Positions 9,950 to 28,465 of a DNA stretch of 64,000 nt are shown here, one piece after another (position 1 is the first letter of the stretch; every line of letters begins with the position of its first letter). The DNA lies in NCBI GenBank assembly GCA_028714855.1, contig JAQTLP010000007.1, positions 62,001-126,000 on the forward strand. The letters run 5' to 3'. The notes beneath the pieces were generated by a model. It saw only the letters and a list, made by a program, of their open reading frames with translations, was not told the origin of the DNA and did no database searches. A program made the position numbers and the translations under genes. The stretch is from Phycisphaerae bacterium (GTDB lineage: Bacteria; Planctomycetota; Phycisphaerae; Sedimentisphaerales; Anaerobacaceae).

Positions 9950-10843
9950 TTATTTTTTCGGTTTGATATTGGGCATTCCCTTTAACAATTCAAACGGCTC
10001 TGTATCAGTGCTGAAAACAATAGTTGACCTTTTCTCCAGAAATTTTTTGAGAGCATCGATATTCCGCAGAAAGATTGCAAAGTCTGGGTCTTCCTCGAGC
10101 AATTTATAATATTTCGCGGCTTCGGCGTCGCCCTCAGCACGTATTGCCTTTGCCCTTGCCTCCGCGGCGGCAAGCAGCTCTGTCTTTTTTGAATCGGCGT
10201 CTGTTTTTATCCTGGTGGCTTCGGCGTTTCCTTCGGCAATAGTGGCTTCGGTCTTACGGTTTCTTTCAGCCCTCATTCGTTCAAAAACGTCTTTGCTGAC
10301 CTCCTCACTGATTTTAAGTTGCTTTATTCCGAGGGTTTTGATTTCAATGCCATAATTGGCCCTGACAGGCTGTTTGAGGTCGGCAAGCATCTCGTTTTGA
10401 ATCTCTTCAAATTTTATTTTTGAAGGGTTGCTATTCACAAATTCAGCGAAATCGTGCCCGCCGATTATCTTATTCTGCGTATCGCTAAGCTGGCTGAGCA
10501 ATTTGTTTTCGGCTTCCTTGATAGTTCCGACGGCATTGAAGAACATGAGCGGCTCGGCAATTTTCCAAACGACGTAGGTGTTCACGATAATGGGTACGGC
10601 CCCCTTGGTTGTTGTCTCGCCGAGGTCGGCTTCGAAGACCCTCATTCGGGAATCAAATTTATAAACCTGTTCGATTGGAGCAGGCCATTTGAAATACCAG
10701 CCCGGTTCGGTGATTCCGCGGGTGGGTTTGCCGAAGGTAGTTACCAAAGCAGATTCTATCTCCCTGACCTGGAACGAGACAAAATACAGCACCATAATGG
10801 CAACTATCAATATGATAAAAATTGTAATGGCTATATTTTTCAT
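9950..10843 (-). CDS. hflC: SPFH/band-7 protein, HflC-like
   Basis: HflC-like membrane protein of 297 aa. It has one N-terminal TM helix (about residues 5-23), then the SPFH opening (VREIESALVTTFGKPTRGITEPGWYFKWPAPIEQVYKFDSR is the recognisable stretch, given here only by position 27-67). A coiled-coil segment rich in AEA/RAEGDAEA follows at about 195-245, as in HflC. The family partners with HflK to form a cage around FtsH. Its start overlaps the end of the third SPFH gene by 4 nt (ATGA type), so the two are likely translated in a coupled way. No ftsH gene is visible in this window. Confidence 0.87.
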   Translation of the reverse strand: MKNIAITIFIILIVAIMVLYFVSFQVREIESALVTTFGKPTRGITEPGWYFKWPAPIEQVYKFDSRMRVFEADLGETTTKGAVPIIVNTYVVWKIAEPLMFFNAVGTIKEAENKLLSQLSDTQNKIIGGHDFAEFVNSNPSKIKFEEIQNEMLADLKQPVRANYGIEIKTLGIKQLKISEEVSKDVFERMRAERNRKTEATIAEGNAEATRIKTDADSKKTELLAAAEARAKAIRAEGDAEAAKYYKLLEEDPDFAIFLRNIDALKKFLEKRSTIVFSTDTEPFELLKGMPNIKPKK

Positions 10844-12903
10844 TTTTTGTTACTCTCCTGAAGACCGCTTAATTCATATAAACTCGGCGTTAGTTTGTCC
10901 TGAGCGTCGAATATAAAAACCTGTGTATCATTCTGGTCGGCGACCACAACATATTTTCGTGTGTTCTCAAGAGCCTCCTCCAAAGCCGCTAATCTCTGTT
11001 CCTGTTTATAAATCTCTTTTGCGGCCCTGTAGGCTTTAAGCTGGCTGTCGAATCGCTGTCCCGTCGCCTGAGCAAGTGTTGCTTTCTCAAAAGCGTAGCT
11101 TTGCGCTTCTCGTAATGTGCTGAATATCTTGCCCTTTGCTTCTGCGAAGGCCGAATCCAAATCATTGGCAAGTTTTTCGATTTCCTTGGGCTGATTTTTC
11201 TCCTTAACCTGCTGGTATTTGGCTGCGAGACTATAAAGCCTGTCAGCGTCCTCTACAGAACCTGCGAGGGCGCTCAAAACTTTGTTGCGCTCTGCATAAG
11301 CACCGAGGATAAGTGCCTGTTTCTTTTGAACGGCCCCAATAACCTTTTGATAGTCTCCTGCGACTTGGGGCGGTGGGTGAATCCCCTGAAGGCCCAAAAA
11401 TATGATTTCAACACCTAGGCCGGCTTCGTCAGCAGCGGCCTGAATGCGGCTGATTAAAGTACGCTCAGCTTCGGCACGGCCGGCTCCAAGCAGGCTCTGA
11501 TTTATACTGGCTTCGTCATTCACTTCAATCTTTGCACTGGCTGCGAACCGGGTAAGCTCGTGATAACAGATAGACTCAAGCAGCTTTTCCGGCTCGTTAT
11601 GGTTATAAATGAAAGAATACAAATCTTTTATTTTGTATTGAACGGGAACGGTAGCAACTATGAGACTTACGGGGACAGCTCCGGCGGCCGTCTTGGAACT
11701 TGTCTGTTCACTGGCGACCAGCAAAAGGTCTTCCTTTTCGTAATGAGCTTTACCCCACAGCAGCGGTTCACGGTCAAGCTCTTTGGTGCCTGGTTTGTAC
11801 TTCGGGACAAAACCTATGCTGATTTCTGAAACCATTTTCGTGGGATGCTTATAGGTGATATCGATGGGCCAGGGCCATTTGAAAGTCAGTCCGGGCTTGG
11901 CAAGTCTAACCTGGTTGGTTTCGCTTAAGGGATTGCCGAAATGCTCTATTATTGCCTCTTCGTTCGGGTTCACTACTACGATACAACTCAACAGATACAG
12001 TGTAACCGCAGCAAAAAGAATCAAAGGTGCTATTGCTTTTTCGAGGAGTTTATAAAACCATGTTTGAGAAACTTTAAAACCGAACTGGTAATCGATGGTG
12101 CTTGCGGCTGTTCGGAATAATCCGCCCGGCTCATTTATAGTCCCAAGCAGTCTGCTGTCAAAAGCGCTTTTGGCATATTGGCCTTTTAGCCTCGGGCGGT
12201 AGATATCGAAGACGATGTTCAGAGCGGTTTCTGCACCAATGGCGAGCAGCAGGATAGGGACAATAAGATCGATTACATTAATCACAATGAAAATCTTGAA
12301 TTGTGCCAACGCCAGGCTAATAGCCAGCGCGAAACACAAAATAGCTATACCGAGCAAGATACTGCCGCCGGCCCTTAAGGGTTTCCACTGCAGTTGTGCC
12401 GACATACCCGTGGCATAGCGGGAAATTATGAAGCTGACGAACGCCACGGCCGTCATACAAGCGGCACAAACTAAAGGCTGCTTCGCCTCGTGCTCGGCAG
12501 CGGCCTGGACAGCTTTTAATAAGTACAGCCCAATGGCTATCTGGTAAGCGGCTATAATTGCGGAGAATATGGGAATGAACCATTTTTCGAGCAAATCAAG
12601 CCGGCGCTGGGCAACAGCGAACATAACAGCCCGTTCCCCCCCTGCCTGGAATATGGTGGTGGCCTGCTTGCTCTCGGCCAATTGGCCCATATCGAGCTTT
12701 TCCTGCTCGGCCAAGGCCCGTTGATGAAACTGAATGGCCAGAACAAACCAAATCAGGGCTGCCGAGAGGATAAGCCAACTGATTGCAGAAAGCGCGAAGA
12801 ATCCGCTCCATCGGCCCACAAAAAAGACGATGCCGAAAAACACGATGCTTAAAATCAGGGATGCTCGAGCTATATGTTCAGCACGTTTGGACGATGTTGT
12901 CAT
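10840..12903 (-). CDS. Large polytopic SPFH/band-7 protein
   Basis: Third SPFH protein of the cluster (687 aa). Unlike HflK/HflC, its N-terminal 330 residues are an integral membrane region with about seven hydrophobic segments (for example 16-32, 36-56, 90-115, 150-165, 180-235, 290-315). The SPFH domain then begins near 318 (VVVNPNEEAIIEHFGNPL). The C-terminal third is a long helical stalk ending in FIFDAQDKLTPSLYELSGLQ. It is the promoter-proximal gene of the eight-gene minus-strand block and overlaps hflC by 4 nt. It probably forms an expanded HflKC-like assembly with the two following genes (inference). I know no named function for this architecture. Confidence 0.8.
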   Translation of the reverse strand: MTTSSKRAEHIARASLILSIVFFGIVFFVGRWSGFFALSAISWLILSAALIWFVLAIQFHQRALAEQEKLDMGQLAESKQATTIFQAGGERAVMFAVAQRRLDLLEKWFIPIFSAIIAAYQIAIGLYLLKAVQAAAEHEAKQPLVCAACMTAVAFVSFIISRYATGMSAQLQWKPLRAGGSILLGIAILCFALAISLALAQFKIFIVINVIDLIVPILLLAIGAETALNIVFDIYRPRLKGQYAKSAFDSRLLGTINEPGGLFRTAASTIDYQFGFKVSQTWFYKLLEKAIAPLILFAAVTLYLLSCIVVVNPNEEAIIEHFGNPLSETNQVRLAKPGLTFKWPWPIDITYKHPTKMVSEISIGFVPKYKPGTKELDREPLLWGKAHYEKEDLLLVASEQTSSKTAAGAVPVSLIVATVPVQYKIKDLYSFIYNHNEPEKLLESICYHELTRFAASAKIEVNDEASINQSLLGAGRAEAERTLISRIQAAADEAGLGVEIIFLGLQGIHPPPQVAGDYQKVIGAVQKKQALILGAYAERNKVLSALAGSVEDADRLYSLAAKYQQVKEKNQPKEIEKLANDLDSAFAEAKGKIFSTLREAQSYAFEKATLAQATGQRFDSQLKAYRAAKEIYKQEQRLAALEEALENTRKYVVVADQNDTQVFIFDAQDKLTPSLYELSGLQESNKK

Positions 12904-16765: not shown

Positions 16766-17161
16766 ATGGCAATGAGTCGGGATGAGATTTTTCAGGAGGT
16801 TCAGGAAGTTCTGGTTGATGCGCTGGGGGTTGACAATGATGAGGTTACGACCGGTGCAACCTTGATGGGAGATTTGGGAGCTGAAAGCATTGACTTTCTG
16901 GACATAGTATTCCGATTGGAAAAGGCGTTTGGAATAAAGATTCCGCGAGAGGAGCTGTTTCCTGCCGAGAGTCTGATGAGTAATCCCGCGTTTATCAGTA
17001 ACGGGAAATTGACCGGGGCAGGACTGGTTGAGTTGCGGGAGAAAATGCCGCATACCGACCTGGCCACATTCGAGAACGACCCGGATATCAATAAGCTGGG
17101 CGATTTGTTTACTGTCGGTGCGATTGTAAATTACATAGATACTAAGCTGAACGCTGCGTAA
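16766..17161 (+). CDS. Acyl carrier protein, long form
   Basis: Acyl carrier protein. The phosphopantetheine attachment serine lies in DLGAESIDFLDIVFRLE (about residue 40), followed by EKAFGIKIPREELF as in AcpP. At 131 aa it is longer than ordinary ACPs (about 80), because of an insertion of about 40 residues after helix II (SLMSNPAFISNGKLTGAGLV region) before the final FTVGAIVNYIDTKL helix. A GGAGGT ribosome site precedes the ATG. It is dedicated to the neighbouring dehydratase/ketosynthase genes rather than being the housekeeping ACP (inference from context and length). Confidence 0.88.
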   Translation: MAMSRDEIFQEVQEVLVDALGVDNDEVTTGATLMGDLGAESIDFLDIVFRLEKAFGIKIPREELFPAESLMSNPAFISNGKLTGAGLVELREKMPHTDLATFENDPDINKLGDLFTVGAIVNYIDTKLNAA

Positions 17162-17180
17162 AATTTTCGACACGGACTTG

Positions 17181-17204
17181 TCCGCTACAGGCGGATTTTA
17201 ATTT
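17181..17204 (+). terminator. Possible weak terminator after the ACP gene
   Basis: TCCGC-TACAG-GCGGA hairpin followed by TTTTAATTT, 20 nt after the ACP stop. The short stem makes the call uncertain. It marks the left edge of the inserted cassette. Confidence 0.35.
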
Positions 17205-17385
17205 GATATTATTTCTAACGTCAGGTTCACACTGTTAACCATTTGTATGATGCAACGCGGAATATCTAAGCAAACAGAGAGGCCTTGGCTGCAATTAGAA
17301 GTTAGTAGATGCCGCGTGCTGCAACCTTTAGAATATATATGTTTATTAACACATAATCCGAAAAGCATTTATTGGAGCGTTTTTG

Positions 17386-17820
17386 ATGTCGGAAAAGCCT
17401 TTTGCGTTATCAGTCAAAGTCGTGATACTTGATAAGAATGGCCGCTGTCTGCTTTTAAAGCGGTCGATGAGCTCCAAGTATAATAAAGGCAAATGGGATC
17501 TTCCTGGGGGTAAAGTCGATACAAACGAGGATTTTGAAAAAGCATTACTTCGCGAAGTGGCAGAGGAAACAGGTCTAAAAATATCACTGGAAAAAGTAGT
17601 CGGTTCAGCTCAATCCGAAACTCCCACTAAAAAAGTAGCATACATAATACTGGAAGGAACGATTATTTCCGGTGAAGTTAAACTCAGTGATGAACATAAT
17701 GAATACATCTGGGTCGATCAGAGCAACTTGGCAAAGATGGACCTTTGTAAACAGTTCTACCACTTTGCTAAGATATATAGCGGTTCGTCTTCGGAACAGA
17801 AACGGGACTCGTTCGATTGA
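17386..17820 (+). CDS. Nudix hydrolase
   Basis: Nudix-fold pyrophosphohydrolase of 144 aa. The complete Nudix box G-x5-E-x7-REVAEETGL (about residues 43-65, starting GKVDTNE) binds the metal. The upstream LPGGK and the N-terminal FALSVKVVILDKNGRCLLLKRS strand are typical of NTP or nucleoside-diphosphate-X hydrolases. The start is ATG 17386 with GGAG at 17374; a TTG directly before it is less likely. It ends 37 nt before the RelA/SpoT-SLOG-RyR gene. It may hydrolyse the nucleotide signal of that system (alarmone, ADP-ribose derivative or NAD product), but this is inferred from position. Confidence 0.9.
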   Translation: MSEKPFALSVKVVILDKNGRCLLLKRSMSSKYNKGKWDLPGGKVDTNEDFEKALLREVAEETGLKISLEKVVGSAQSETPTKKVAYIILEGTIISGEVKLSDEHNEYIWVDQSNLAKMDLCKQFYHFAKIYSGSSSEQKRDSFD

Positions 17821-17857
17821 TATTGTAGTATAAAAGAGAATCGTTCAGGAGGTATTT

Positions 17858-20362
17858 ATGCCGCTGAGTGATAGTAAACTTACCAACGAAGAGTTGGTTC
17901 GGAAAAAAATCAAACGGTATGCCAAAGAAAGACCTCGCTATAACAAATATGCGGAAATTCTTAAAGTGATTTTGGAGAAAGCTGCTAATCGATACGCTCC
18001 ATTGGCTATTATCCAAGCCCGAGCAAAAACAGTAGCCAGCTACGCAGAAAAAATACTGCGTAAGATTGAGAGGTACCGACTGACAGACAGTGACGGCAAT
18101 CCACTTCATCCTGTAACCGATCTCTGTGGAGCCAGGGTGGTTACTCATACTTTATCCCATGTAAAAGCCATGTCCAGATTTATTGAAGAACACTTTGAGA
18201 TTGATAAAGAAAATAGTGTTGACTTGGCTAAGCGTCTTAGGGCTAATGAATTTGGATATTTATCAGTTCATTATATTGTACGATTCCGGCGTGGTGTTTT
18301 CCCAACAAAAGAGATACCTATTAAGATTCCCATGGATGTCTATAGGCTTAACGCAGAAATTCAGGTCAGAACACTTCTCGAACATACGTGGGCGGACATC
18401 GAACATGGCCTGCTTTATAAGAGCAACATTAACACCCACAAAAAATGGGAGCGTGAATTTGCTCGTCTCGCGGCGATTCTCGAAGATGCAGATAAATCTT
18501 TCGAAAGGCTTGAAGCAGCTATCAAGGACTATAGTAGCAATTACATTGCATATATGAATAGACAAGAGATCAAAAAGGAAATGGCTATACAAGACATCGT
18601 TTTGTCGGTAGCTCCTAAAGATGTTGAGGTTGCACATCGTATAGCCAAGCTTGCTATGTGTTTGGGGGATTGGCAGAAAGCAATTAGAACACTTAGGCCG
18701 TTTGAAAATCTGGATGTCGGGCCTATACTGCGTGACCTTGGCATTTCAGAGTGTAAGTTATATAAGAAAAATAGCAGAAGGTTTCAGTTAGGACAGAAAC
18801 GTATAGAAAAAGCTATCGAACTTAATCCCACAGATTCCGATGCTTTGTCGGCACTTGGCGGCACATGGAAAAAAATCAGCGGGAAAAAGGCAGCGGCACA
18901 ATACCGGCGTGCTTATGAAATAGTTCCGGATGATCCTTATCCACTCGGCAATTATCTAGAATACGAAATCGCCAAAAGCAAGAACCTTAGTCCCGTTTCG
19001 CTGGCTAAGCCAAGTTTAATCAATGCCATTAAAAAATGCTGGAATCAAATTGATATTGGTGTAAATATACCATGGGCTTATTACGATATGGGAAAGTTCT
19101 ACTTATTGCTCAATGAGCCTTATAAAAGTTTAGATATGTATGCAAAGGCAGTACAACTTAGCACCTCTGCATTTATGATTGAGATATCATTGAATTCTTT
19201 AAATAAAGTTGCTGTTGTCAGGCGATTCCTTACAGGATATGAATGGGTATACAAACTTTTACAGCTTTCTTTAGCAGCCAAATACCCTAAAAAGACAAGT
19301 AAATATGTGCTCCAAGTGTTAAAAAAGAGGGCTTCTGGACATGTTCACAAACCTGTGGTGATAGTTGCTGGCAAATGCGCTTCGAGTATGCAAAAAGAAC
19401 TTCGGAAATATAGGAATATCCTTTTCAATGCCTTTCGAAAATTTAAGGGTGTGGTAATATCGGGTGGTACGACATCTGGCATTAGCGGATTTATAGGAGA
19501 TATAGCAGGAAAGCATCCCAATACCATCAGGGCTATTGGTTATATCCCTCGGAGACTGCCGAAAAATACAAGATTGCACAAACGCTATAGCAGAGTACGC
19601 CATACTAAAGGTACAAACTTTAGCCCCCTTGAATCCCTGCAAAGCTGGACGGACATTATTGTTTCAGGAATTGACCCTGCAAATGTTAAGGTTATCGGCA
19701 TAGGTGGAGGTACGATAACAGCATCTGAGTATAGGATTGCATTAGCTTTAGGGGCAAAGGTCGCTGTTCTCGACGAGAGCAGTGGCGAAGTCGCAAAAAT
19801 TATCCAAGATGACCAATGGAACACATGTAAAAATCTTTTACCTTTACCTGCCGATTCAACAACCATCGGCACTTTCATAAGATATGATATTCCTAAATTA
19901 CCTTCTGGTGTACGAGATACCATTGCGATGGCTATTCACCGACAGTACAGACAGGACCAAATTGGAAACTTGCTTACGGAAAAACCTTCGACTTCGGAAT
20001 GGAGCAATTTACCAGAAAATCTCAAAGAGTCTAATCGGCAACAAGCGGACCACATATTCGAAAAGCTCGACAGTGTCAGCCTAACCGTTCATAAAGTTAG
20101 GGGACGCGGAATTAAACTGCTGAAGTTCAGCGATAAAGAAGTTGAGATTTTAGCAGAAATGGAGCATGCCCGTTGGAACATTGAACGTATTCTGGACGGC
20201 TGGAAATTGGGGCCAGAAAAAGACCTTAATAAAAAGGTTAGTCCATATCTGGCACCTTGGGAGAAACTCCCTGAGGACGTCAAAGAGTGGGATAGGCAGA
20301 CCGTTCGAAAAATCCCGGAATATCTGGCCAAAGTAGGCCTTGAAACTCGTCGGAAGTCATAA
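17858..20362 (+). CDS. RelA/SpoT synthetase-TPR-SLOG-RyR fusion protein
   Basis: An 834-residue multidomain protein. (1) About 40-230: RelA/SpoT nucleotidyltransferase domain, with ARAKTVASYAEKILRK (ATP-binding basic helix), DLCGARVV, FGYLSVHYIV and EIQVRTLLEHTWADIEH including the catalytic Glu of ExQ. It looks intact and has no HD hydrolase domain. (2) About 250-470: helical TPR-like region. (3) About 496-650: SLOG Rossmann-type domain (VVIVAGKC, SGGTTSGISGFIG, GIGGGTITASEYRIALALGA). (4) About 757-834: RyR domain (MEHARWNIERILDGWKLGP, LPEDVKEWDRQTVRKIP). SLOG and RyR domains are seen as nucleotide sensors in conflict systems, so the likely role is ligand-gated alarmone synthesis. An AGGAGG site precedes the ATG. 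It is probably co-transcribed with the Nudix gene. Codons are A/T-richer than in the flanking lipid genes, consistent with transfer. Confidence 0.88.
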   Translation: MPLSDSKLTNEELVRKKIKRYAKERPRYNKYAEILKVILEKAANRYAPLAIIQARAKTVASYAEKILRKIERYRLTDSDGNPLHPVTDLCGARVVTHTLSHVKAMSRFIEEHFEIDKENSVDLAKRLRANEFGYLSVHYIVRFRRGVFPTKEIPIKIPMDVYRLNAEIQVRTLLEHTWADIEHGLLYKSNINTHKKWEREFARLAAILEDADKSFERLEAAIKDYSSNYIAYMNRQEIKKEMAIQDIVLSVAPKDVEVAHRIAKLAMCLGDWQKAIRTLRPFENLDVGPILRDLGISECKLYKKNSRRFQLGQKRIEKAIELNPTDSDALSALGGTWKKISGKKAAAQYRRAYEIVPDDPYPLGNYLEYEIAKSKNLSPVSLAKPSLINAIKKCWNQIDIGVNIPWAYYDMGKFYLLLNEPYKSLDMYAKAVQLSTSAFMIEISLNSLNKVAVVRRFLTGYEWVYKLLQLSLAAKYPKKTSKYVLQVLKKRASGHVHKPVVIVAGKCASSMQKELRKYRNILFNAFRKFKGVVISGGTTSGISGFIGDIAGKHPNTIRAIGYIPRRLPKNTRLHKRYSRVRHTKGTNFSPLESLQSWTDIIVSGIDPANVKVIGIGGGTITASEYRIALALGAKVAVLDESSGEVAKIIQDDQWNTCKNLLPLPADSTTIGTFIRYDIPKLPSGVRDTIAMAIHRQYRQDQIGNLLTEKPSTSEWSNLPENLKESNRQQADHIFEKLDSVSLTVHKVRGRGIKLLKFSDKEVEILAEMEHARWNIERILDGWKLGPEKDLNKKVSPYLAPWEKLPEDVKEWDRQTVRKIPEYLAKVGLETRRKS

Positions 20363-20413
20363 CGAATTAAATTCCAGTAAACGATCAAGGATTGAGATTT
20401 CTTATGAGGCGGT

Positions 20414-20776
20414 TTAGAAGCCAAGCAGTTTTTTTATCCATTGATACCGCCGGTCCAAGTAAAAGCCTGCCAGTAAGAGCAACATCACAATGGTATATCC
20501 TGGTGCCTTATCGAAAACTGTCCCGCATATAACTGAAAGGATATAAACCGTCAGGACAATTCTCTGCACAAGTCGCGTAATTTGGAGCCCGGAACAATGA
20601 TTTAAACAAGCTAGTAACATATATATGCTCATCCCGAACTCTGTCAGAATACGAAGCATACGCGGCATTTCCTTAAAATATTCAACACTAACAATGCTCT
20701 GCGTGCCCGAATAGTACCCAATCAGTTCCGCACATCCAAGTAAAAAAAAATGCAACCAACTCCACCCATAGCCCAC
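20414..20776 (-). CDS. Membrane protein, C-terminal part of a frameshifted gene
   Basis: A 120-aa frame with three or four hydrophobic helices (for example LHFFLLGCAELIGYY, IYMLLACL, IVLTVYILSVICGTVF, TIVMLLLLAGFYL) and a basic end. It overlaps the upstream frame 20722-21102 by 55 nt. The switch between frames lies at a run of nine T (minus strand, 20742-20750). With ten T residues both parts would join as one protein of roughly 215 aa with six TM helices. Its own start (ATG 20776) has no clear ribosome site, which supports the joined reading. No family recognised. Confidence 0.6.
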   Translation of the reverse strand: MGYGWSWLHFFLLGCAELIGYYSGTQSIVSVEYFKEMPRMLRILTEFGMSIYMLLACLNHCSGLQITRLVQRIVLTVYILSVICGTVFDKAPGYTIVMLLLLAGFYLDRRYQWIKKLLGF

Positions 20777-21102
20777 GCTAACAATTGAGCAAACAAGGCA
20801 TAGCGTTTATCCAGCAAGATTAAGGCGTAACTCAATAACCAGATTAAAAATGAGATTGCGAAGATTACTTCCAGCAATAATTTCACTGTGGGGGTTCGAG
20901 CAAAGGACCAAAGAGATACAAGCGACCACACTCCGCATCCAACTCCAGTACCAGCAAAAATATACGCTAGGAACTCACCCCAAGCACCAGCCTCTTTTTG
21001 TAGATGACGCACATTTAGATGCCACCGGCAGTACTCCTCGCCTTCTATGGCAAGTCTACTACATCCTCGGACACCATAATTCTCACCGCATTGAAACCTC
21101 AT
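20722..21102 (-). CDS. Cys-rich N-terminus plus TM helices, N-terminal part of a frameshifted gene
   Basis: A 126-aa frame starting with a small metal-binding-like module (C5, C14, C26 and H29 in the pattern C-x8-C-x11-C-x2-H, ending YCRWH), followed by three TM segments (about 45-65, 73-95, 102-120). A GAGGAAAG ribosome site precedes the ATG, 20 nt after the TIR-ATPase stop, so the two genes form an operon. The frame ends just after a T9 run, where a one-base shift leads into 20414-20776. It is probably the membrane partner of the TIR protein (inference). No named family. Confidence 0.65.
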   Translation of the reverse strand: MRFQCGENYGVRGCSRLAIEGEEYCRWHLNVRHLQKEAGAWGEFLAYIFAGTGVGCGVWSLVSLWSFARTPTVKLLLEVIFAISFLIWLLSYALILLDKRYALFAQLLAWAMGGVGCIFFYLDVRN

Positions 21103-21122
21103 TGTAACTTTCCTCGATTAAT

Positions 21123-23117
21123 TCAACCACTCAATCTCTGCTTCTCGGCTTCAATCGCCTCTTTGAAGATTTCCTTAAGCCACTTCAATGCTCCGGTTTC
21201 TTTGGATTTTCGGAAGAGTTCATCTAAATACCGTTTATCCGCGCCTCTTTGGGAAATCTCTACAAGCAGCGCCTTCCGACGACGCCACTTCACATATAAG
21301 AATGGAGAAAGCCCCGCTAGAATGAAACCGAGAATCAATCCAAGTGCTCCAACAAATCGCGCAAGCTGGTATCGCATGGCGTTTTCGGTTTGAGAAGCAA
21401 GCTTCTCGACTAAGCGAACCAGGTAAAATTTACCCCGTACTTGAAATACCTGGTCACATGTCGCTCCAGGAAGCGTTTTCTCAAGGACACTCTGGAGCCC
21501 TTCAATTACGCCAATTCCAGGCACTGGAGACAGTGGTGCTATGGGCTTATCGATAACACCTCCAACTGCCGCTGTTTTCAGATCCGTCGATAATTCTTCA
21601 GCGACCTTTGAGAATCCTTCACCCTTCACGATTCTCTGCTTGGCCATTTCTGCTGTGTCCCTGCTGTCAACCTGAATCACGGCAAGCTTATATGAGGGCT
21701 GTCCTTTGTTGATATTATGGTAACCAAGATATCCAAAGCCGCCGATCATCACCACTCCGAGCACCAGCAGCATAAAGCCCGCCAAGCATTTGGATCGAAA
21801 CCACCAGTTTCGCATCAGTTTCCGTGACAGATTGCGTTCCACGAGCACTTTGATGTACGGCCTGACCCATACATCAAGCTCGTCCGGCAGAAGTTTCTGA
21901 TCGGTGCTCAAAAAGTGTTTATGGTGAACAGCCAAGACATCCTCGTACAAGGAAGTTAGTCCAACAAGATTGAAATCAAGGGTGCCTTTGTCCACATTTT
22001 CTCTTACTGTGGGGTCTTCACGTACAAAGGAAGCGTTCATGCCATCCCAGAGCTGTTTTGTCTTACCAGTGGCCATGTTAACTATTAGATGCATTGACGG
22101 CACATTGTTATCAGGATAGCGTTGTTGATGAATATTGTCTAAGCGAGACAAGTCACGTGCTAATTCGATGGTAGGACGGCAGATTACGTAACCGTAGCTG
22201 GCTAAGGCAAATCCTGCGCTTACCAAAGGAGTATCGTCCGCTGGTGAATCTATTAGGATTGCACCAATTGGCGCTGGTGCACTTCTTTGCATTGTTTCTT
22301 CGAGAATCTCCATAGCCGCAAGGTTTCTATCTTTCAGGCCTGCCACAGCTTCAAATCCTGGGCGGTTGTCGCTAGCATGTCGGCCCGGTATGAGAAAAAT
22401 CTGCCCGAAGCGTTTCTCGTGAAGAAACGGTGGCGTAACTTCCCACATTCCCAAGTCTCGGTTGGACGCGATATTTCCTCCGGTTTTTGCGTATGTAGCA
22501 TCCAATACAGTCCAAACACGTGGCCGCCGATTCGCACGTGGTGTCAGATAGCCAGCAATGCCGGCTGTGTTAGTATCCATATCAATAATAAGGACATTGG
22601 TACCCGTCATGGCTATCAGGTCGGCCGTAGCAGTGATGAATGTTGATTTTCCGACGCCTCCTTGCCTACCCATAACTGCGATAATTGGACAATCCTTGGC
22701 GGATGGAGTGTCATATAGTTCCCTTCGTATCCTTTCAACTAATTCTTTATAGGAATCTTCAAAACCTAAGAGGTACTCAAGTATTTTTTCTTGGGTTACC
22801 AGGATTATCTCAAGACCACTGGCAGAGCTCTTTGGGATAGCTTCTAAGAAAACGGGAATAATTCGAATTTCCCTTTCATCGGCCCGCAGCACTTCACGCC
22901 TTACAAATCTCGACTTTAGACCGGCTTGTGAGACAAAGACGATTAATACATCTGCTTTTGTCGTCTGAGCGGCTAATACCTCAAGAAAATCGTCTCCATA
23001 TTTGCCTATCTTCCTATCCCAGAATACTTCAATATCAGGTTCATTCTCGAGACGAGAGACATACTTTTGAACTTTTTCTCGATCCTCATTCGCATAACTG
23101 ACAAAGACATTTTTCAT
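21123..23117 (-). CDS. TIR-P-loop ATPase-TM-parvulin-TM fusion protein
   Basis: A 664-residue fusion. Residues 1-135 are a TIR domain: start NVFVSYANEDRE, BB-loop region VFWDRKIGKYGDDF, then FVSQAGLKSRFVRREVLRA with Glu75 at the position of the NADase catalytic Glu. Residues 145-400 form a ParA/MinD-like P-loop ATPase (GRQGGVGKST at 150-159, IIDMDTNTAG, ILIDSPADD); the signature first Lys of the deviant Walker A is Gln. A TM helix lies at about 443-465, then a PpiC/parvulin-like domain (about 475-575: KQRIVKGEGFSKVAEELSTD, GGVID, FYLVRLVEK), a second TM helix (about 583-606) and a basic cytoplasmic tail. So the TIR and ATPase face the cytoplasm and the parvulin-like domain the other side. GGAG lies 8 nt before the ATG. 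It is convergent with the RelA/SLOG gene. Confidence 0.85.
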   Translation of the reverse strand: MKNVFVSYANEDREKVQKYVSRLENEPDIEVFWDRKIGKYGDDFLEVLAAQTTKADVLIVFVSQAGLKSRFVRREVLRADEREIRIIPVFLEAIPKSSASGLEIILVTQEKILEYLLGFEDSYKELVERIRRELYDTPSAKDCPIIAVMGRQGGVGKSTFITATADLIAMTGTNVLIIDMDTNTAGIAGYLTPRANRRPRVWTVLDATYAKTGGNIASNRDLGMWEVTPPFLHEKRFGQIFLIPGRHASDNRPGFEAVAGLKDRNLAAMEILEETMQRSAPAPIGAILIDSPADDTPLVSAGFALASYGYVICRPTIELARDLSRLDNIHQQRYPDNNVPSMHLIVNMATGKTKQLWDGMNASFVREDPTVRENVDKGTLDFNLVGLTSLYEDVLAVHHKHFLSTDQKLLPDELDVWVRPYIKVLVERNLSRKLMRNWWFRSKCLAGFMLLVLGVVMIGGFGYLGYHNINKGQPSYKLAVIQVDSRDTAEMAKQRIVKGEGFSKVAEELSTDLKTAAVGGVIDKPIAPLSPVPGIGVIEGLQSVLEKTLPGATCDQVFQVRGKFYLVRLVEKLASQTENAMRYQLARFVGALGLILGFILAGLSPFLYVKWRRRKALLVEISQRGADKRYLDELFRKSKETGALKWLKEIFKEAIEAEKQRLSG

Positions 23118-23259
23118 TCTTGTATCTCCGTTTCAGCAACTCCGCCTGTTCCTTTTGGGAATTTAACGAATTACCACCCATCCTTCGGATTTTAGCATCT
23201 TTTGCCATGTTTTTATCTGAATATCCGTGAATCGCTCTAAAACATTACATTATTAGTCT

Positions 23260-23288
23260 ATTGTCTTCTCATTCTCTATTTTTGTCAA
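23260..23288 (-). promoter_or_regulatory. Sigma-70-like promoter for the TIR operon
   Basis: Minus-strand -35 TTGACA (23283-23288, perfect) and -10 GACAAT (23260-23265) with 17-nt spacing. Predicted start is near 23253, with a leader of about 135 nt to the TIR gene. Confidence 0.55.
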
Positions 23289-23374
23289 TTCTTAAGGTCG
23301 AATAATGAAAAATTCGTTTTAAGCTGAAATGGTGTCTCTTTGTGACAATACGGAGGAATTTGGGCAAGTTTTGC

Positions 23375-23403
23375 TTGAAGAATTGTGGAAATTGTCTTAT
23401 TAT
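23375..23403 (+). promoter_or_regulatory. Promoter placing the TSS at the ATG (leaderless)
   Basis: TTGAAG (23375-23380), 17-nt spacer, TATTAT (23398-23403). Only 8 nt separate the -10 from the ATG at 23412 and there is no ribosome site. Transcription would therefore start at or within two bases of the start codon. Confidence 0.55.
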
Positions 23404-23411
23404 GACGGTTT

Positions 23412-23915
23412 ATGCGCTGGATATGGATTGATAAATTTGTTGAGTTTCACAGCGGCGAGAGTGCTGTGGCGGTAAAAAATGTAACGCTCGCCGAAGAGCA
23501 CTTACATGACCATTTCCCCGGCTTTCCTGTTATGCCGGAGAGTTTAATGATAGAAGCGATGGCCCAGACGTCGGGGATACTTGTCGGGGAGGCAAACCGT
23601 TTTAAGGAAAAGGTGATTCTTGCAAAGATAAAGAAGTGCGTCTTCTTCGACTACGTCAAGCCAGGCGATACACTAAAATTATATGCGAAGATTGAAAGCA
23701 TCGCCCCCGAAGCGGCAAGCACAAGCGGCAGGATTACCTGTGAAGATAAATTGATTGCCGAGATAGATTTGATGTTCAGCCATATTGACCAGAACCTGGC
23801 CGGCAAAGAGTTCCCGAAAGAAAATTTCGTGTTCACTGACACGTTCAAATCACTTCTGCATGGCCTGTCTATTGATAAAGGTGATTCCGGCACGACGGAA
23901 TCAGGACAAGATTGA
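23412..23915 (+). CDS. FabZ-like 3-hydroxyacyl-ACP dehydratase
   Basis: Second hotdog-fold dehydratase (167 aa), paralogous to 16275-16739. Both share the opening IDKxVxxxxGxxxxxVKxVxLAEExLxDHFPxFPVxP. The active-site stretch DHFPGFPVMPESLMIEAMAQTSG carries the FabZ His and Glu. It predicts dehydration of 3-hydroxyacyl-ACP. Its stop overlaps the ketosynthase start by 4 nt, so it is translationally coupled. The start ATG has no ribosome site and sits directly behind a promoter, suggesting a leaderless mRNA. Before the cassette insertion it probably continued the operon begun by the dehydratase and ACP genes at 16.3-17.2 kb. Confidence 0.86.
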   Translation: MRWIWIDKFVEFHSGESAVAVKNVTLAEEHLHDHFPGFPVMPESLMIEAMAQTSGILVGEANRFKEKVILAKIKKCVFFDYVKPGDTLKLYAKIESIAPEAASTSGRITCEDKLIAEIDLMFSHIDQNLAGKEFPKENFVFTDTFKSLLHGLSIDKGDSGTTESGQD

Positions 23916-27919: not shown

Positions 27920-28465
27920 ATGATTATTGCTTATCATACTATATTTACTACATACGGTACTTGGTTGCCGAACGACCCGCGTGGTTCATACTCAAAAGAT
28001 GTTTACATCAGGCAATTACAATCCTTGGGGACTGTAAAATACGGACGCCAGAATCCGCAACCTGCAAAGAAGACTCTTCAAAAATTTTGGGCTGTAGCAA
28101 GACATTGCACAACTCGCCCGCCGTTTTTCATTAACGATAGAACAAGACCGCTTGTAGCATTGGGTTTTCGAACAGTTATTAACAGATTTAATGTTATAGT
28201 GCCTGCCTGTGCGATAATGAACGACCATGTGCATATACTTGTTATGCGACCGGAATACACGATCGAATATCTTGTCAACCAGTTAAAAGGTGCGGCTACC
28301 AAGGCGATGGAACTCGATCGTACTCCATGGACACGAAGTTTCTGGAAAACGTTTATCAATGACGCTGATACCCTAAGTGCCGCTGCCAGATATATCTGTG
28401 CTAACCCTGAGAATTCAGGCCTTCCCCCTCAATCTTGGGATTTTGTCACCCAATTGAACGTTTAG
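27920..28465 (+). CDS. REP-associated tyrosine transposase (RAYT, Y1 HUH family)
   Basis: Single-strand DNA transposase-like protein of 181 aa of the IS200/RAYT group. The HUH motif is seen as NDHVHILVM (about 95-103). The catalytic Tyr is in ARYICANPENSGL (about 157). The N-terminal YHTIFTTYGTWLPNDPRGS is typical of RAYTs. RAYTs process REP hairpins, and here six REP copies flank the gene, two before and four after. There is no tnpB and no IS200-type end, so it is a domesticated or stand-alone REPtron rather than an insertion sequence. Its stop TAG is again supplied by a GTTTAG string. Confidence 0.88.
   Translation: MIIAYHTIFTTYGTWLPNDPRGSYSKDVYIRQLQSLGTVKYGRQNPQPAKKTLQKFWAVARHCTTRPPFFINDRTRPLVALGFRTVINRFNVIVPACAIMNDHVHILVMRPEYTIEYLVNQLKGAATKAMELDRTPWTRSFWKTFINDADTLSAAARYICANPENSGLPPQSWDFVTQLNV

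Follow-up and report, generated by a model that had tools for sequence, protein, structure and literature searches.

A four-domain alarmone synthetase-like protein with TPR, SLOG and tandem RyR domains and a Nudix or HD hydrolase partner gene in bacteria and archaea

The four-domain protein and its synthetase domain

The window analysed here is a stretch of 64,000 nucleotides (nt) from a Phycisphaerae bacterium (assembly GCA_028714855.1, contig JAQTLP010000007.1), and it contains a gene for a protein of 834 amino acids (aa) in which a RelA/SpoT-type alarmone synthetase domain, a tetratricopeptide repeat (TPR) superhelix, a SLOG domain and a tandem RyR unit are joined in one chain (17858–20362, + strand). 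The open reading frame (ORF) had been called by a first-pass annotation of the letters alone and was confirmed at exactly these coordinates. A Nudix hydrolase gene is located directly upstream. The analysis supports this architecture, intact catalytic residues, the exchange of the Nudix gene for a small alarmone hydrolase (SAH) gene in some related loci, recurrence of the protein across phyla and its position in an insert with a TIR gene. The parts are of known kinds: small alarmone synthetases (SAS) and their toxic relatives (toxSAS), SLOG effectors such as ThsA of Thoeris, and RyR signal binders. A text search of the open literature found no paper with the synthetase-TPR-SLOG-RyR combination; the coverage of that search is incomplete and an earlier mention is possible.

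The domains were assigned from Pfam profiles and from structural comparison of an AlphaFold model, which was built with 63 homologues as input and reached a mean predicted local distance difference test (pLDDT) score of 91.8 and a predicted template modelling (pTM) score of 0.82. The SAS-like synthetase domain (17903–18532, +; residues ~16–225) has a RelA_SpoT match at residues 55–190 (E 1e-15), and residues 18–225 align to Bacillus subtilis SAS1/RelQ (Z 17.5). The region that follows (18542–19282, +; residues ~229–475) had been described as a helical spacer. It is corrected here to a TPR superhelix, because residues 229–475 align to TPR proteins such as MamA and OGT, and several TPR families match at residues ~230–450. 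The profile of TPR-S (PF20308), a TPR sensor of NAD signals, is aligned over its whole length with a weak score (E 0.0015, 19.5 bits against a cut-off of 27.6), and 7 of 41 homologues scanned singly match it at E <= 0.01. The third domain is a Rossmann domain of the TRPM-type SLOG (LSDAT) family (19349–19888, +; residues ~498–677). Its LSDAT_prok match at residues 499–653 (E 2.7e-5, 24.0 bits) is slightly under the cut-off of 25.4, and residues 498–677 align to the SLOG protein TM1055 (1rcu; Z 17.5). The MHR1/2 region of TRPM2 in dADPR also matches (Z 15.7, range 488–827). The GGTxxG and GGGxxxxxE motifs recognized in the first reading are present and conserved, with G537 and G541 kept in 63/63 homologues and E624 in 62/63. 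The C-terminal unit (19847–20359, +; residues 664–834) has an RyR (PF02026) match at residues 752–829, well above the cut-off (E 1.2e-13, 51.6 bits against 27.4). The RyR assignment had been made for a single module, and while profile and fold bear out the family, residues 664–834 align as a tandem unit to the two-repeat RyR R12 structure 6uhi (Z 15.0, 162 aa, 3.0 Å), with a degenerate first repeat at ~664–750 and a canonical second repeat at 752–829. Among the 41 singly scanned homologues, RelA_SpoT and RyR are found in all and LSDAT_prok in 37 (E <= 0.01). A chance ORF or a gene-fusion artefact was also considered and is ruled out by full-length homologues with 27–50% identity to the window protein in ~20 phyla.

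The synthetase fold is present with the RxKxxxS, Asp, G-loop Tyr and ExQ motifs of RelA/SpoT homologues (RSH) and SAS. R55, K57, S61, K65, D88, R93, Y134, E167 and Q169 are identical in 63/63 homologues, the catalytic ExQ glutamate (E167) thus being lost in none, and R68 is found in 59/63. These invariant residues correspond to the named residues of FaRel2 that bind ATP, Mg and acceptor (R64, K66, S70, K74, D90, R95, Y128, E145 and Q147; PMC11782079), and a degenerate synthetase is thereby ruled out. The closest profiles are those of RelQ and RelP (~E 1e-21 to 1e-13), followed by CapRel (E 6e-6) and, marginally, FaRel2 (E 0.008). The nearest solved homologues of the domain are the ppGpp synthetases RelQ (SAS1) and RelP (SAS2), which share its fold and all catalytic motifs; they are single-domain proteins, whereas the window protein adds TPR, SLOG and RyR domains and a dedicated hydrolase gene. 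The HD, TGS and ACT domains of long RSHs were not detected by Pfam in the 834-aa protein, which has TPR, SLOG and RyR instead. The predicted product is an alarmone, with G, A or tRNA as the possible acceptor. The synthetase domain also matches the PADLOC candidate PDC-S33, and related stand-alone synthetases of ~340–360 aa are found in loci L008 and L010.

Nudix and alarmone hydrolase partners

The Nudix gene (17386–17820, +) is the first gene of the apparent operon and ends 37 nt upstream of the synthetase gene on the same strand. Its 144-aa product is MutT/NudG-like (Pfam NUDIX, E 6.7e-20), has an intact Nudix box (E57, E60, E61) of the MutT/NudG type and matches the PADLOC candidate PDC-S07 (E 3.7e-23). 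The nearest NCBIfam equivalogs are PRK08999, NudG, NudI and MutT, at scores that do not reach the equivalog cut-offs. A set of 79 loci was compared, with duplicates removed and many loci ending at contig ends. A same-strand Nudix gene adjoins the synthetase homologue in 48 of these 79; 46 were scored automatically (same strand, <=600 nt; 29 upstream and 17 downstream), and L020 and L086 (gene split by frameshift) were added. The density of Nudix genes is 0.34/kb within 1 kb of the homologues and 0.004/kb at 5–8 kb. The partners comprise at least two sequence types ('WDLPGGK' and 'WCLPGGK'), located upstream or downstream of the synthetase gene, and the catalytic glutamates E57, E60 and E61 are invariant in 48/48. 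Both types score best against MutT/NudG/NudI-like models of NCBIfam, and models of ADP-ribose (ADPR) pyrophosphatases are not among the matches listed. About 10 changes of partner state are found on the homologue tree. In L041, a downstream 307-aa protein (10701–11621) consists, by appearance, of two degenerate Nudix-like halves and has no Pfam match. At L086:7989–10507, on a Methanomicrobiales contig, the homologue is split into two frames by a frameshift or an assembly error.

In L069, L071, L074 and L075, an HD hydrolase gene is located directly upstream of the synthetase in place of the Nudix gene. The HD...ED and D(R)xxN motifs of its product are of the SpoT/Mesh1 type and identify it as an SAH, and its profile matches the HD hydrolase 7p1y (E 1.4e-47), followed by Mesh1 and Rel hydrolases. 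The SAH clade is nested among Nudix loci (support 100), with L075 (SAH) as sister to L079 (Nudix), and the two partners are adjacent together in 0/79 loci. In L021, the most divergent homologue, a Mesh1-like HD gene is found ~3.4 kb away. L071 (a Methanosarcina bin) and L074 (a Bacteroidales bin) are almost identical, SAH gene included, which may reflect a recent inter-domain transfer or mis-binning.

That two unrelated hydrolases replace each other at one position suggests that the Nudix and SAH partners share a substrate. SpoT/Mesh1-type hydrolases are known to act on alarmones, and Nudix substrates are hard to predict. For E. coli, degradation of (p)ppGpp by MutT and NudG has been shown (PMC7593582), and activity of Mesh1 on NADPH is also reported (PMC9765508). 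The simplest reading, which is quite probable, is that the Nudix partner destroys the alarmone. A cognate neutralizing gene in the operon is known from toxSAS, where FaRel is paired with the SAH antitoxin ATfaRel. Here, some loci likewise pair the synthetase with an alarmone hydrolase (SAH in 4 of 79), the usual partner being a Nudix protein instead (48 of 79), and neutralization by either partner is putative. In toxSAS and CapRel the synthetase can act as an abortive effector, and toxicity of the window protein is likewise putative.

Insert, distribution and neighbouring genes

The operon is part of an insert of ~6.2 kb (17168–23411, no strand assigned) between an acyl-carrier-protein (ACP) gene, which ends at 17161, and a FabZ-like gene, which starts at 23412. 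In five relatives (G001, G002, G004, G005 and G013), FabZ follows the ACP gene within ~100 nt and the insert is absent. Besides the Nudix and synthetase genes, the insert contains two small unmatched ORFs and the gene for a 664-aa membrane protein (21123–23117, −) with a TIR domain (TIR_2, E 5.8e-15) and a ParA/KGGVGR-type ATPase domain (AAA_KGGVGR, E 5.1e-10), the only TIR_2 match in the window genome. Membrane segments and a weak rotamase-like match were also noted in this protein. The small ORFs (20414–20776 and 20722–21102, −; overlapping, span 20414–21102) are downstream of the TIR gene, hydrophobic by inspection and without a family match in the searches. Mobile-element ends were rejected, as neither terminal direct or inverted repeats nor a clear break in base composition was found at the insert.

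The 834-aa synthetase is the only RelA_SpoT match in the window genome. Among the 61 genomes searched, this one included, the domain is present in 7 and absent from 54, in agreement with a report that bacteria of the Planctomycetes-Verrucomicrobia-Chlamydiae (PVC) group lack long RSHs (PMC3153485). None of the other 60 genomes in this nearest-relatives sample, the sampled genus and family mates included, contains the 834-aa protein; G023 gives one weak hit, to the synthetase region alone. A sample of 392 genomes of the phylum contains four full-length homologues (G202, G216, G218 and G117). When 84,980 species genomes were scanned, 78 loci were recovered from bacteria and archaea, most of them in metagenome-assembled genomes. 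The bacterial loci include Planctomycetota, Verrucomicrobiota, Chloroflexota, Acidobacteriota, Actinomycetota, Nitrospirota, Bacteroidota and others, and two cultured strains are represented, Oligosphaera ethanolica DSM 24202 (L083) and Thiocapsa marina 5811 (L095). In all, ~70 full-length homologues are distributed patchily across ~20 phyla, archaea included. The homologue tree requires 34 changes of phylum label, against a minimum of 18, and is less scattered than with shuffled labels (mean of 39); because the tree disagrees with the phyla, spread by transfer is the simplest reading, and some of the scatter may stem from mis-binned contigs. A phage-borne system was rejected, as no full-length member was found in viral contigs and none in phage and plasmid records. 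The viral contigs of IMG/VR (L131–L164) contain matches to the synthetase domain alone, with 26–39% identity to the window domain.

The first-pass annotation had expected homologues to be linked to defence or stress loci and had proposed a survey of their neighbours for TIR or Nudix genes. Both were found. TIR genes reach 0.175/kb within 1 kb of homologues against 0.015/kb at 5–8 kb, a ~12-fold difference. In a sample of 94 proteins near the homologues and 94 far from them, Nudix and SAH genes being left out, TIR_2 occurs in 9 near and 3 far proteins and TrkA_N in 11 and 2. RyR and AAA_16, each with a count of 7, rank with the most frequent families of the near sample, and the list of 25 families for the far sample contains neither. 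The neighbours are enriched in TIR, AAA_16 (STAND-type) and DUF4062, and a link of the homologues to TIR and conflict genes is supported. TrkA_N proteins recur beside the synthetase (L029:78–2189, L036:126–1787, L038:6133–7881, L094:5154–6965 and others). Their N-terminal region is hydrophobic by inspection and several have an RyR domain at the end, and they could be bacterial RyR-gated channels. Genes for proteins of ~870–930 aa with terminal RyR domains also adjoin the synthetase (L019:11819–14539, L074:10595–13213 and L097:5899–8697), and the one in L019 additionally has an AAA+ domain.

Putative sensors, proposed mechanism and alternatives

Several known systems can be compared with the window protein. 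In Thoeris, the TIR protein ThsB makes isomers of cyclic ADP-ribose (cADPR), and ThsA is the SLOG effector. The insert likewise combines a SLOG-containing putative effector with a TIR gene, and ADPR-type ligands are plausible. However, the Thoeris effector is a SIR2 NADase or a membrane protein, whereas an alarmone synthetase is found here; the SLOG domain is of the TRPM/LSDAT type, a TIR gene is not a constant member of the operon, and neither a SIR2 nor a macro domain was found by Pfam in the 834-aa protein. TRPM2, with its MHR1/2 and NUDT9-H regions, shares the TRPM-type SLOG region and a functionally linked Nudix, but it is a channel, and here the Nudix is a separate gene beside an alarmone synthetase. 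CapRel senses a phage protein with a pseudo-zinc-finger domain (pZFD), in contrast to the putatively nucleotide-binding SLOG and RyR domains here; no pZFD is among the Pfam and structural matches listed for the 834-aa protein. For RyR domains, a May 2026 preprint reported that 2'cADPR and 3'cADPR are ligands of phage proteins with an RyR domain, and that the phage protein RyDEP cleaves both using H75 and D117, assisted by W78 and H100 (PMC13232231). The window protein shares the RyR fold of RyDEP and other R12-type domains and keeps the catalytic/ligand pair and the tryptophan. By Pfam and PDB alignments and by spacing, H75 and D117 correspond to H770 and D812 (63/63) and W78 to W773 (62/63). 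The ligand pocket predicted for the RyR unit therefore seems retained, though the phosphate contact differs. RyDEP is viral, while the RyR unit here is cellular, in tandem and at the end of an enzyme.

A ligand-gated alarmone synthetase, as proposed in the first reading, is the best-supported interpretation of the sequence; the Nudix or SAH partner was absent from that proposal. The fuller module, in which a cADPR/ADPR-type signal would gate alarmone synthesis and a Nudix or SAH partner would reset it, has about an even chance of being correct. With ATP as donor, the N-terminal domain would pyrophosphorylate a nucleotide acceptor, which could be GDP/GTP or ATP, or possibly the 3' end of tRNA. 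The TPR superhelix would hold the synthetase off until the SLOG and tandem RyR domains bind a signal of the ADPR type, for example an isomer of cADPR. The simplest source of this signal would be a TIR enzyme answering infection or damage, and the TIR-ParA protein of the window is a candidate maker. The alarmone would stop growth, often in a host without its own stringent response, and the adjacent Nudix (in one clade the SpoT/Mesh1-type SAH) would destroy the product, set the threshold and permit recovery. Of these steps, a sensor ligand of the ADPR/cADPR type is on balance probable, and gating of the synthetase by such a ligand is favoured to the same degree. Growth arrest as phage defence is possible at slightly less than an even chance, and production of the ligand by the TIR genes is more tentative. 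The full cascade, in which TIR-made cADPR is converted to an alarmone in a Thoeris-like manner, by a second-messenger synthetase effector with its own eraser enzyme in bacteria and archaea, including hosts without a stringent response, is rather doubtful.

Several findings weigh against this gated module. The SAH swap is seen in only four loci, and one of these, L071, may be mis-binned because it is near-identical to L074 and its contig has a length of 5 kb. TIR neighbours are frequent but not found at every locus (34 have one within 8 kb), and the TIR gene of the window is on the strand opposite to the synthetase. Matches to catalogued defence models of PADLOC are few and their near/far difference is modest, and the claim of a defence island is therefore weaker. 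The equivalent of the phosphate-binding H100 of RyDEP is S795 in the window protein and S, H or N across the family; the full residue set is thus not conserved, and the ligand may differ from cADPR. In addition, eight other phage RyR homologues were tested, of which six bound, two did not and none cleaved, and the non-cleaving ones are highly conserved in sequence with RyDEP (PMC13232231).

The alternative that survives best, though unlikely, is a conventional stress alarmone synthetase that senses the NAD/ADPR pool and replaces a missing stringent response, with no phage role. The window host has no other RelA_SpoT domain, 54/61 genomes have none, PVC bacteria are reported without long RSHs (PMC3153485), and ppGpp synthetases are the nearest solved homologues, all of which would fit. 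Such a role agrees less well with a patchy, transferred distribution and absence from the sampled genus and family mates, with the location in an insert containing a TIR gene, or with neighbours enriched in TIR, AAA_16 and DUF4062.

It is somewhat less likely again that the Nudix acts on the input, hydrolyzing the ADPR-type ligand of SLOG and RyR and ending the signal, instead of degrading the alarmone. The NUDT9-like part of some TRPM2 channels hydrolyzes an ADPR-type ligand, and TRPM2, where SLOG-type MHR1/2 is joined to the Nudix-like NUDT9-H, is among the structural matches (8e6v). ADPR and NAD are also common substrates of Nudix enzymes (PMC9503650). However, one clade has a SpoT/Mesh1-type alarmone hydrolase at the Nudix position, and the NCBIfam comparison favours MutT/NudG/NudI, with ADPR-pyrophosphatase models not among the matches listed.

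In a further, improbable alternative, sensing is left to SLOG, and the RyR unit is a glycosidase like RyDEP that uses up the signal; it would be a built-in timer and not a second sensor. The invariant H770/D812 pair would allow this, but H100 is not conserved, and in the phage set RyDEP alone cleaved, the eight others giving no degradation (six bound). Least probable is a toxSAS-type tRNA pyrophosphokinase acting on the tRNA CCA end and not on a free nucleotide: FaRel2 and CapRel have the same catalytic residues, CapRel is detected at E 6e-6 and SAH enzymes neutralize toxSAS products (PMC11782079), yet the closest profiles are RelQ and RelP, FaRel2 is marginal (E 0.008) and a Nudix partner more simply fits a free nucleotide.

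If the gated-module reading is true, NAD-derived immune signals and (p)ppNpp alarmones would meet in one polypeptide with an eraser gene adjoining, RyR domains would gain a role inside cellular effectors, and the presence of alarmone synthetases in planctomycetes, verrucomicrobia and methanogens without Rel would be explained. The recurring design may represent an unstudied nucleotide-relay stress or anti-phage system. Elsewhere in the window, beyond the SerRS gene, an ORF at 27920–28465 (+) resembles, by eye, a REP-associated (IS200-like) transposase.

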